From: Candidatus Daviesbacteria bacterium
Lineage (GTDB): Bacteria; Patescibacteriota; Microgenomatia; Daviesbacterales; UBA10151
Length of the DNA stretch: 37,893 nucleotides
NCBI GenBank assembly: GCA_027451625.1
Contig: DAIDIY010000038.1
Coordinates: 1 to 37,893, forward strand
Direction of reading: 5' to 3'
Of this stretch, positions 30,223 through 34,200 are shown piece by piece. The notes under the pieces were generated by a model. The model saw only the letters and a list, made by a program, of their open reading frames with translations, did no database searches and had not been told where the DNA came from. Both the position numbers and the translations under genes were made by a program. Positions within the stretch are counted from its first letter, which is position 1. The number at the start of each line of letters is the position of its first letter.

Positions 30223-33200
30223 GTGAGAAATAAGCTAAATCTTCGAGTAAATATCGTCCCTAAGAGAATAAATAAACTTTTAGATAAGTATCTGTATAGA
30301 CTTCGGAAGAAAGAAGAGCTTACTATTTCTCTTTCATTGGCAGTAGTAGTACTATTTTTTGCTATAGCACTGATAGCTCCGTTTAAGTCACAACTTTTAT
30401 CAACTCTTTTTAAAAAAGGATTTATTCATGCCACAGGAACTTTAAACAGTGATGATTGGCCACAACTAGGACATGATGCTCAACGGACAAATGATACACC
30501 CTCAAATATACCTCCCGGACCTTATAGATTTTACTGGCGATGGACAAATACTCCTTTTGCATCGCGAGTTCAACCAGTAGTTGTAGGCGGAGTTTTATAT
30601 ATTGGAAGCTTGAATGGAACATTTTATGCAGTCAATGCAACAGCTGATAATCAAGGAGGACCTCCTACAATCATTTGGCAAAAAGTTTTGAATATATACG
30701 ATCCATCCAGAAATTATGGAAATAATATAGATAATATAACTCCTGATCCAGTACGATCTGGAGCTGGTGTAGATGTAAGTACTGGAACGGTCATAGTGGG
30801 AACACAACATGGAACGATATATGGCCTTGATACAACATCCGGTAATGTTAAATGGACAGTATTTACCGGAGGAGCAATAGTAGCCTCCCCTCTTTTGGAT
30901 GAAGCCGGTACAGTTTACATTGGCTCATCAGATGGATATTTTTACTCTATTAATACTGCAACCGGAGCTATAAATTGGAAAACCGAAATTGATAACACAA
31001 TCTCAAGCTCAGTTGGAACAAGTAATCTACCGGTACCGATTTTAGGATCAGCAGCACTCTCAACAGATGGGACGCAAATTTATCTTGTCGCCGAAAACGT
31101 TAGAGCTTATGCACTTAGCAGTTCAAATGGATCTATAGTCTGGTCAACACAGCTTCAAGGACAATCTGAAGAAGGAAGAGCTCCAGTGGTTTACCATAAC
31201 TTGACAACCGGAGTTGATGAGATATTCATAAGGACTCAACCCATCGAAAATTTTACTGAACTTTTGAAAAACGGAGATTGCGTTTTAAATGGAAATTATC
31301 CCAGTAATTGTGGTAATTCTTCATCTATACCATGGTCAACAACTGACGACACATCGATATGGAGTCAGGACTGGAATTTAGTCCGACCTAATATAGAAAC
31401 CTATTTGCAAGGAGATCCTTCTTCGCAAACAATATTTGCTTTAAATGGCAGTAATGGACAACCTATTACTGGTAGCATTGCTTCTGTACCTCCAGTCCTA
31501 TATACATATGGTGTTAATCAAACCCCATCATCACCAGCTCTTTATAATAATGAACTTTATTTGCCATATAGACCTCGTCATGGGATTCAAACTGATAATG
31601 GATCGGTACACGTGACCACTCAATACGATGCTGAACTGGGAATGATGGATCCTTCAACATTTGATATAACCAATATTGCCACTGATTCAGCCTCAGTTGG
31701 TTTTCATTATCAATTTCGTCTCACCTCTGATGAACCTGCTAGTGTCTCAGTAGCAGGCAACTATTTATTAGTCGACTCATGGGAGAGACTAGGAGGCCTC
31801 CAACTCACTAATGCTACTACAGGAAATCTAATTGATATCGCTACGATTTCTAATGTGAATGGAAGTTGCCAATGGGGAATTGGCGATGCCTTATATCCCT
31901 ACTCTGATGCTCAATTTTATGATAGCTGCTCTGATTTAAATAACATTTCTGGAAATGTGACAGGTGATGGAGAATCTAGAGAAGGAGTTGTAGTTTCATC
32001 TAACCGTATCTTTTGGCATGTTCTATCAGATGGGTTAGGAGCATTGGGCAATGCCAACAATATAACTGATTCTCTTTTGCCGACTGTTACCCCTCCCCCA
32101 ACGGTAGCACCACTTCCCGCACCTATATCAACTCCCAGCGCTTCAACTTTAATTAATGACTATGTTTGGAACGTGCCCACCAGGCCAGTTTCTACTCCTT
32201 CAGCAGATTTAGTCAGTGAGCTAAGTTCAGCAGTACAAAGTATCGTCAACTCAAATCAGCATTTACTTCCTTATTACTTTGAAAACGGTTACCCCCAATC
32301 CGGTTCATGGCCTCCTGATTCAGGAAACGGGGAGCCAGCAGAGGTTGAGATAAATCAATGGGGCAATCATGGATTCTGGTATGATCAAGGAGAGCTCCTT
32401 TACACACTTTCTATAGCTTATCCATACCTTTCTTCATCTCTACAATCGCAAGTGAAAACATACATTCAAAGCCAAATGATTAATCTCTTTCCGCCGCTTT
32501 CTGCGCTGCCTTACGGGGGAAGCTGGCCCTGGGAGACTCAAGGGCAAAGTAGAGAATACTTTCCAGTTCCCTCACCTATTAGAACAGGCAGCGAAAATAG
32601 CTGGCCTCCTCCAACTCCTCCTCTTCAAACTTTATATGCATTATGGGCTTATGGTAACTATACCGGAGATTGGTCATATATTGACGCTAATTGGCAAAAC
32701 GGTACCATACAAAGTTTCTTTACCAGCAAAACTCAATCAATTGCTACATCTTCAGCTTCACCCACTGCTGTAGATTCTTATGCTGAAATAGCAGGGGCAA
32801 TAGGATACGCAAGAATTGCGCAACATGAAGGTGATACAACACAGGCTCAAAATGGCGCAAATATTGCAGCTTCAGACATGTCTGCAGGTATTACTAATTT
32901 AAATAACTGGACAGATATTGCCAATACTCTATATCCAAAATCTCAACAATCCGGCAACTCTCCCGCTGAGCAGATTGGAAGTCGCGGACAAGCATGGTGG
33001 GGACTTGTTCCTGAAGTAGGACACTATTTACACGATACGAATCTTCCAGCGGTTAATGATTTATTGTCTCCTCTAATTGATGTAAACAATAATGATGGGT
33101 GTTATTTGTGGTATATCACAATGCTTGGCACACAGTGTCAATTATCTGAATCATCCAGGCAAAGCCCAGAGATTGGTTGGTCAGTATTTTTAACTCAAGC

Positions 33201-34200
33201 ATACATTGAGGGAGATAATCAACAACAACTTCGCTACTTTCTGGATAGACCTTGGGGGCTGGGAGATCCTTGGTATATTCAAAAAATAGTAGCAACAATA
33301 GAAGCTCCTAACCCTCAATCAACTGGGTCAGTGGTAGGAGTGGTATCTGGAGGAACAGCTACATTCTCAGCTAATTCGACACAAAGTACAGTTAGTACAG
33401 GAGGAACAATCCCTGTTCAGATCTATGCAGACTCAGAAACCGATGCAGCAAATCTGTTTTCAGCAAAACTAACATTTAATCCTCAAGTATTATCGGTATC
33501 AAGCATAGATCCAACAGGATCGTTTGTAACTACATGGGCAGAAAAGTATTTTGATAATACTAATGGGAATGTATCCATAACAGGAGGAGTAGTTTCACCG
33601 GGAATAAAAACTACAACTCCTCAGCTTCTAGCAACAGTAAACTTTACTCCCCTTACAAGCGGAAGTACTACTATAAATTTTGATAACACTAATTCAGTCA
33701 TTTATCGTAATTCAGACAATGCAGATATTTTAGGTTCAACTACTAATTATACATTTATTATCTCTCCAATTCCTACTCAGTCTTCCACTCCTACACTCAC
33801 AGTTACCCCAACTATGACACCAACTCTAACTTTAACTCCTACTCCCACAGTAACACTCACCCCAACACCAACTCCAACACTCACAGTTATCCCGACTATG
33901 ACACCAACCCCAACACCAACTACTGGGTTAAATACTCCAACACCAACAATAACAGTAGTGCCAACACTTTCAATAACACCAGGTATAGGAGGGGGACTTA
34001 TGGGAGATGCGAATGGAGATGGGAGAGTAGACCTGCAGGATATGTCAGCGCTCTTTACTGATTGGTGTTTGGCATCGTGTAATCCTGTAGATGTGCCGTA
34101 TACATTGGACTTTAATCATGATGGGGTAATAAACTCACTGGATTATGAGAATATGCTAAATATCCTATTGTCAAATGGTACTATTCATCCCAGTAATTAA
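30223..34200 (+). CDS. Giant surface protein: anchor, PQQ-like propeller, alpha/alpha-barrel-like region, cohesin and dockerin (1325 aa)
   Basis: GTG start. One membrane helix (LSLAVVVLFFAIALIAPF, about 37-54), the rest outside. Residues 75-640 form a PQQ/quinoprotein-type beta-propeller with repeats such as GGVLYIGSLNGTFYAVNA, GTVIVGTQHGTIYGLDTTSG and GTVYIGSSDGYFYSINTATG. Residues about 645-1028 are helical and Trp-rich, like six-hairpin glycosidases (HGFWYDQGELLYTLSIAYPY, GSRGQAWWGLVPEVGHYL). A cohesin-like domain (1050-1182) begins VSTGGTIPVQIYADSET. A Thr/Pro linker leads to a type I dockerin (1258-1325) with two calcium loops, DANGDGRVDLQD and DFNHDGVINSLD. Catalysis is unproven. A cohesin and a dockerin in one chain suggest self-assembly or docking of partners. 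Confidence 0.85.
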   Translation: MRNKLNLRVNIVPKRINKLLDKYLYRLRKKEELTISLSLAVVVLFFAIALIAPFKSQLLSTLFKKGFIHATGTLNSDDWPQLGHDAQRTNDTPSNIPPGPYRFYWRWTNTPFASRVQPVVVGGVLYIGSLNGTFYAVNATADNQGGPPTIIWQKVLNIYDPSRNYGNNIDNITPDPVRSGAGVDVSTGTVIVGTQHGTIYGLDTTSGNVKWTVFTGGAIVASPLLDEAGTVYIGSSDGYFYSINTATGAINWKTEIDNTISSSVGTSNLPVPILGSAALSTDGTQIYLVAENVRAYALSSSNGSIVWSTQLQGQSEEGRAPVVYHNLTTGVDEIFIRTQPIENFTELLKNGDCVLNGNYPSNCGNSSSIPWSTTDDTSIWSQDWNLVRPNIETYLQGDPSSQTIFALNGSNGQPITGSIASVPPVLYTYGVNQTPSSPALYNNELYLPYRPRHGIQTDNGSVHVTTQYDAELGMMDPSTFDITNIATDSASVGFHYQFRLTSDEPASVSVAGNYLLVDSWERLGGLQLTNATTGNLIDIATISNVNGSCQWGIGDALYPYSDAQFYDSCSDLNNISGNVTGDGESREGVVVSSNRIFWHVLSDGLGALGNANNITDSLLPTVTPPPTVAPLPAPISTPSASTLINDYVWNVPTRPVSTPSADLVSELSSAVQSIVNSNQHLLPYYFENGYPQSGSWPPDSGNGEPAEVEINQWGNHGFWYDQGELLYTLSIAYPYLSSSLQSQVKTYIQSQMINLFPPLSALPYGGSWPWETQGQSREYFPVPSPIRTGSENSWPPPTPPLQTLYALWAYGNYTGDWSYIDANWQNGTIQSFFTSKTQSIATSSASPTAVDSYAEIAGAIGYARIAQHEGDTTQAQNGANIAASDMSAGITNLNNWTDIANTLYPKSQQSGNSPAEQIGSRGQAWWGLVPEVGHYLHDTNLPAVNDLLSPLIDVNNNDGCYLWYITMLGTQCQLSESSRQSPEIGWSVFLTQAYIEGDNQQQLRYFLDRPWGLGDPWYIQKIVATIEAPNPQSTGSVVGVVSGGTATFSANSTQSTVSTGGTIPVQIYADSETDAANLFSAKLTFNPQVLSVSSIDPTGSFVTTWAEKYFDNTNGNVSITGGVVSPGIKTTTPQLLATVNFTPLTSGSTTINFDNTNSVIYRNSDNADILGSTTNYTFIISPIPTQSSTPTLTVTPTMTPTLTLTPTPTVTLTPTPTPTLTVIPTMTPTPTPTTGLNTPTPTITVVPTLSITPGIGGGLMGDANGDGRVDLQDMSALFTDWCLASCNPVDVPYTLDFNHDGVINSLDYENMLNILLSNGTIHPSN
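33777..33975 (+). repeat. Thr/Pro linker-coding imperfect tandem repeats
   Basis: Degenerate ACNCCNACN-type repeats encode the linker. A 32-nt unit beginning ACACTCACAGTTA is present at 33793-33824 and again at 33877-33908, 84 nt apart, with three mismatches. Likely to vary in length between strains. Confidence 0.7.

Follow-up and report, generated by a model that had tools for sequence, protein, structure and literature searches.

A probable membrane-anchored adaptor scaffoldin with one cohesin, one dockerin and its own cargo in Candidatus Daviesbacteria

Introduction

The closest described systems are the monovalent adaptor scaffoldins, which are defined as having one dockerin and one cohesin and have been proposed to switch types (PMC11557425). 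Chains with a dockerin and multiple cohesins are found in ANME (anaerobic methanotrophic) archaea, and the presence of cohesins and dockerins outside cellulosomes does not by itself make their role clear (PMC9012536). Within the Microgenomates, cohesins and dockerins are reported in Shapirobacterales and Roizmanbacterium and, in the passages found of that source, are called cellulosome parts (PMC9123182). No paper naming both Daviesbacteria and dockerin was found among the open-licence papers searched. Here we describe P0001, a protein that carries a cohesin and a dockerin and is encoded in a 37,893-nt window of Candidatus Daviesbacteria (assembly GCA_027451625.1), the window being the whole stretch analysed and one entire contig (DAIDIY010000038.1). 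An earlier note on this DNA presented the one-chain arrangement as unusual. That was overstated: the arrangement is established, and any claim that it is unprecedented is ruled out by the same two papers (PMC11557425, PMC9012536).

P0001 is probably a membrane-anchored adaptor scaffoldin with cargo of its own. It is a real, family-wide version of the known adaptor design and not a one-off oddity. Little is known of how ultra-small Patescibacteria build their surface machinery, and of how they attach to other organisms or feed on them. The earlier note placed the protein in a small cell, and the source genome is indeed small, a Patescibacteria genome of 1.15 Mb that is 98% complete.

Results

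Architecture of P0001

The open reading frame (ORF) of P0001 starts with GTG. From the N-terminus to the C-terminus, the protein contains a hydrophobic anchor, a PQQ/BamB-type propeller, an all-helical domain, a cohesin, a Pro/Thr-rich linker and a dockerin. Features are listed below, with AlphaFold2 confidence as predicted local distance difference test (pLDDT) values; C33, C34, C35, C46 and C49 are other contigs of the same genome that bear paralogues.

30223..34200, plus strand: whole adaptor-like protein P0001, ORF of 1325 aa (ORF list and translation; paralogues exist)
30319..30381, plus strand: hydrophobic membrane segment, residues 33-53, predicted anchor (Kyte-Doolittle scan; near-constant in C49, C46 and C35)
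30436..32127, plus strand: PQQ/BamB-type beta-propeller region, residues 72-635 (PF13360 match; 51% identical in C49)
32146..33309, plus strand: all-helical domain with no named relative, residues 642-1029 (alignments A5 and A6; adjoins the propeller in the relatives read)
33358..33765, plus strand: cohesin, type A (ANLFSAK...YRNSDN), residues 1046-1181 (profile against PDB, AlphaFold2, Foldseek, family search)
33766..33987, plus strand: Pro/Thr-rich linker, residues 1182-1255, predicted disordered (AlphaFold2 pLDDT mostly 46-67; sequence)
34003..34188, plus strand: dockerin, scaffold-borne type, residues 1261-1322 (PF00404 1.7e-4; scaffold-type dockerin profile A7 1.9e-25, the window copy being itself in A7; pLDDT 74-95)
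34006..34041, plus strand: calcium loop 1, DANGDGRVDLQD, residues 1262-1273 (canonical pattern)
34066..34080, plus strand: CLASC, with Cys1282 and Cys1286, between the calcium loops (confined to own-genome paralogues)
34108..34143, plus strand: calcium loop 2, DFNHDGVINSLD, residues 1296-1307 (canonical pattern)

Cohesin and dockerin modules

Residues 1046-1181 are a cohesin. Because Pfam gave no match to this domain (PF00963 is below its gathering score and absent even at E<=1), we turned to a family profile and to a test of the fold. PF00963 is matched by 8 of 18 relatives individually, with a best value of 7e-14. The profile of alignment A1, in which cohesin relatives from the same genome and family are aligned across the whole domain, ranks cellulosomal cohesins first among PDB sequences (best E=3.5e-4). 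AlphaFold2, run on residues 1035-1325 with a 20-row alignment (the target and 19 natural relatives), models the cohesin with pLDDT 92-98, and in a Foldseek search of the PDB with this model all 50 best matches listed are cohesins. The closest structures, 6kgc, 6kge and 1g1k, superimpose with root-mean-square deviation of 2.5-2.8 Å and TM scores of 0.76-0.78. Thus, the beta-sandwich fold and the profile similarity to solved cohesins are both present, and residues 1050-1182, for which the earlier note had named a non-cohesin fold as grounds for rejection, do adopt the cohesin fold in the model.

The dockerin contains two DxNxDGxxxxxD calcium loops, each followed by a helix in the model, as expected of dockerin type I. 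Loops corresponding to DANGDGRVDLQD and DFNHDGVINSLD are found in nearly all relatives that retain the domain; their absence from close homologues would have spoken against the calcium-binding dockerin put forward in the earlier note. In the domain search proposed in that note, PF13360 is above its cut-off, PF00963 fails for the window copy, and PF00404 reaches 22.2 bits against a cut-off of 22.9 (E=1.7e-4, hmmscan). In the genome scan with PF00404, the window dockerin with its neighbour has 31.9 bits, above the cut-off. Relative to the C33 paralogue, the ratio of nonsynonymous to synonymous divergence (dN/dS) is well under 1 for both modules (0.25/1.14 for the cohesin, 0.13/0.56 for the dockerin). 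The profile, fold and conservation results together exclude chance.

Both cysteines of the WCLASC insert occur in the window copy and in C33, and the second is also present in the truncated ends on C34 and C35. None is present in the dockerins of the aligned Daviesbacteria relatives. A disulfide between Cys1282 and Cys1286, as suggested in the earlier note, is possible; because the cysteines are limited to own-genome paralogues, it would be a local addition.

Membrane segment

Residues 33-53 have a mean Kyte-Doolittle value of 2.8, are preceded by a basic N-terminus and are predicted to act as a membrane anchor, cleavage being the alternative. The anchor and propeller claimed for a single chain are thus both found, the former as a prediction. 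The N-termini of most surface proteins in loci L024-L081 share a basic start, one hydrophobic helix and a PKA/HAA-like motif about 10-15 residues later, and this pattern may mark the proteins of the lineage for sorting or cleavage. A scan for promoters and terminators gave signal no better than in shuffled sequence.

Paralogues with near-constant ends

The paralogue set of the genome consists of four gene starts and four gene ends, counting the window (contigs C49, C46, C35, C34 and C33 are loci L024, L032, L033, L034 and L025, respectively). The C49 copy is 58% identical over residues 4-1031, continues into a second propeller-like region and more, and runs off its contig. The C33 copy has a cohesin and a dockerin with beta-helix-like and Ig-like cargo, named by eye from sequence, and also runs off its contig. 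Of the remaining pieces, C46 and C35 each end with an N-terminal one, and C34 and C35 each begin with a C-terminal one. The C34 and C35 starts are identical over exactly 141 nt, which looks like the kind of overlap that an assembler leaves at an unresolved repeat.

Synonymous divergence (dS) is 0.04-0.56 at the ends of the set and 1.1-2.1 inside. Specifically, it is 0.27 for the anchor and about 1.9-2.1 for the propeller and helical domain relative to C49, 1.14 for the cohesin and 0.56 for the dockerin relative to C33, and 0.04 for the last 40 dockerin codons relative to C34. Because the ends are near-constant and the middles are diverged or different, these rates suggest that the copies have undergone recombination or conversion and that cargo is exchanged by recombination among paralogues.

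The census of other cohesins and dockerins proposed in the earlier note gives five cohesins on five ORFs in the genome and eight dockerin matches outside the window. On contig C20 (L027, about 19.1-23.5 kb), two small genes for anchored cohesins of type B come after a large dockerin gene, and this type of cohesin pair is likely a core surface system. The last 141 nt of contigs C10 and C6 (L030, L031) are identical and encode half a dockerin (NGDGVIDQRDVDC), apparently part of a second set of repeated dockerin genes that the assembly interrupted. Contig C14 (L028:3533-4447) encodes an anchored 305-aa dockerin protein adjoining ribosomal L10/L12 genes, and most family genomes have dockerin proteins about 300 aa long.

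Distribution in the family and beyond

The named relatives are almost entirely Candidatus Daviesbacteria. Among 45 family genomes, the cohesin profile matches 42 and Dockerin_1 matches all 45. The cohesins were split into type A, to which the window cohesin belongs (motifs ANLFSAK, GGVPxPG and YRNSDN), and type B by an A1 E-value of 1e-26 and motif, the C20 pair being placed in type B by hand. Type A comprises 37 matches in 20 genomes. A Pfam dockerin is in the same frame for 21 of the 37, as joined over the listed Pfam matches only, and six more have a dockerin by family profile or direct reading (the window, G019:C11, G031:C54, G008, G032 and G009:C28), so that 27 of 37 type-A cohesins share a chain with a dockerin. 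The corresponding number for type B is 2 of 77; these cohesins are usually encoded by two adjacent small genes (35/45 genomes), frequently with a gene for a large dockerin protein next to them (15 cases seen). Conversely, 31 of 33 scaffold-type dockerins (A7) are on an ORF that also bears a cohesin. By genome, type-A cohesin and scaffold-type dockerin are both present in 21, cohesin only in none, dockerin only in one and neither in 23, in a table joined by hand in which G038 is just at the type-A score limit.

In loci from other families (28 genomes of the phylum), a dockerin is on the cohesin ORF in 0 of 44 cases, within loci that span only 1.5 kb on each side of the match and therefore truncate a few ORFs. 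Despite this count, same-chain examples outside the family exist in Gottesmanbacteria and Wildermuthbacteria (L074, L079), so the design is concentrated in the Daviesbacteria family and not exclusive to it.

Among relatives with chains of the same design, L043 and L080 have glycosidase-like domains as cargo, L071 has a right-handed beta helix, and some chains have no cargo. In L064 and L066, cohesin chains have dockerin-protein genes directly after them (beta-helix/TIM-like by eye), and in L069 a GH18-dockerin gene (GH18 by Pfam) directly precedes a cohesin-only gene. The Daviesbacteria clusters in L064, L066 and L069 resemble a very small cellulosome cluster.

Propeller and helical cargo

PF13360 (PQQ_2) matches residues 178-318 of the propeller with E=1.3e-16 and 61.5 bits, above the cut-off of 27.6. 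The helical domain, for which 17 homologues were aligned (residues 642-1029), has no Pfam or NCBIfam match and no accepted PDB relative. A PDB profile search with alignment A5 gave no match. Alignment A6 matched designed armadillo repeats in the PDB over a single stretch of 34 residues and, weakly, one viral fusion protein; these matches were rejected as chance helical similarity, and a search of viral contigs for the domain found none. Together, the propeller and helical cargo are present in 10 of 187 genomes of the class, a patchy distribution. In one case from another family (L035) the cargo is 54% identical and the chain ends in a dockerin, without a cohesin. Relatives of the helical domain are found in L112-L139, with several copies clustered in contig C19 of G129.

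The cargo could be an enzyme, an (alpha/alpha) barrel glycosidase or lyase, which would make P0001 an anchored enzyme that also docks others. We regard this as possible but somewhat doubtful. Kindred proteins bear GH18, GH5/GH-catalytic-core or beta-helix domains, and A6 has conserved W, E, D and R positions, both in favor of an enzyme. On the other hand, the helical domain is without a Pfam, NCBIfam or PDB relative, and single-sequence AlphaFold2 of the domain alone gives pLDDT 37. For lack of such a relative, the glycosidase-like (six-hairpin) barrel of the earlier note stays a guess and was not confirmed.

Discussion

P0001 is likely to work as an adaptor scaffoldin in the following way. 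The N-terminal hydrophobic segment would hold the protein in the membrane, and the propeller and helical module would be cargo, probably binding or processing an extracellular polymer. The single cohesin would be a socket for another dockerin protein, while the C-terminal dockerin would plug the chain into another cohesin. With paralogues that have near-constant ends and different cargoes, the cell could assemble a variable surface complex. Computation shows both modules, the architecture, its recurrence in the family and the constant ends with diverged cargo; from these we infer that cohesins bind dockerins, which partners they choose, that the chains are at the cell surface and that polymer is processed.

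Several points weigh against this account. The N-terminus could be a cleaved signal instead of an anchor. Type-B cohesin pairs have a much wider distribution than type A, and the dockerin may in fact bind those. The spacing between cohesin and dockerin in family chains ranges from 4 to 555 residues; there is therefore no conserved geometry, which argues against a conserved folded-back pair.

An adaptor scaffoldin of this kind could be used in two ways, to link like chains head to tail, or to receive enzymes or other dockerin proteins through one specificity and engage the small anchored type-B cohesins through another. The first is a tentative possibility: each dockerin would engage the type-A cohesin of a neighbouring copy, and anchored chains would join head to tail into strings or a mesh, either on a single cell or bridging cells. 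The scaffold-type dockerin and the type-A cohesin share genomes (21 with both, 1 discordant), although this follows trivially from their location on one chain. The predicted template modelling score (pTM) of 0.73 for the single chain 1035-1325, obtained despite the long disordered linker and read without predicted aligned error or coordinates, is a weak hint of docking between the dockerin and its own type of cohesin. Against this use, both partners would be membrane anchored.

The second use may also apply, and we hold it tentatively. Specifically, the type-A cohesin would take the dockerins of other proteins, and the P0001 dockerin would plug into small anchored type-B cohesins, such as those on C20, in the manner of classical cellulosomes with two specificities. 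Type-B pairs are present in 35 of 45 family genomes, dockerin-only proteins of relatives adjoin type-A cohesin genes and have a different, more symmetrical dockerin (DINGDNKVDIIDLSVLLSNW type), and type switching is what has been proposed for monovalent adaptors (PMC11557425). However, most of the 23 genomes that lack the scaffold-type dockerin still have type-B cohesins, which implies a different partner for type B, at least in those genomes.

It is quite unlikely that the modules are structural leftovers of a surface adhesin without mutual binding, the dockerin a calcium-stabilised spacer and the cohesin a beta-sandwich spacer: they do accompany PT linkers and Ig-like spacers, and presence alone leaves the role of non-cellulosomal modules unclear (PMC9012536), but the calcium loops and cohesin core are conserved with dN/dS well under 1, and both modules are retained together in 21 genomes.

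Returning to the adaptor scaffoldin, a bolder and rather unlikely extension is that anchored cohesin-dockerin chains assemble themselves into a mesh that coats Daviesbacteria and exchange their cargo by recombination between constant ends, giving a modular surface that grips or digests a host or its polymers. P0001 and its relatives show the plug and socket of the cellulosome adapted, with few cohesins, to genomes of about 1 Mb. Family-wide anchored adaptor scaffoldins with exchangeable cargo supply defined soluble modules for testing, and the cohesin-dockerin pairs of Daviesbacteria may serve as orthogonal connectors.

Comparison with known systems

By its single cohesin and one dockerin per chain, P0001 has the composition of a monovalent adaptor scaffoldin, which would link two different partners through cohesin-dockerin binding. 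ScaC/ScaH of Ruminococcus and the adaptors of Acetivibrio and Pseudobacteroides likewise have one cohesin, one dockerin and linkers (PMC11557425, PMC12484212). Unlike them, P0001 has a predicted N-terminal anchor and a large propeller and helical cargo, and is encoded in a reduced Patescibacteria genome with five cohesins. The ANME proteins are also non-clostridial and combine a dockerin and cohesins on one chain, but have up to five cohesins, and the cargoes named for them are transporter binding proteins and S-layer domains (PMC9012536). Shapirobacterales and Roizmanbacterium belong to the same wider group as Daviesbacteria, and the passages found of the source on them describe no architecture (PMC9123182). 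Neither the single-chain design nor Daviesbacteria is mentioned in the papers searched. A cellulosome has a multi-cohesin scaffoldin and dockerin-bearing glycoside hydrolases (GH). In the source genome each of the five cohesins is on an ORF of its own, and no clear dockerin-GH is among the dockerin loci read, no systematic scan for GH or carbohydrate-binding modules having been made.

At the level of single domains, the cellulosomal cohesins 6kgc/6kge (C. acetobutylicum) and 1g1k (C. cellulolyticum) share their fold with the window cohesin at 15-17% sequence identity. The BamB/PQQ propeller has its sequence match at residues 112-318 of P0001, far under the BamB equivalog cut-off, and the propeller of P0001 is fused to a helical domain, a cohesin and a dockerin. 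Relative to all these systems, it is new that the single-chain design is a trait of a family with reduced genomes, that the chain is predicted to be anchored at its N-terminus, and that cargo is apparently exchangeable between near-constant ends.

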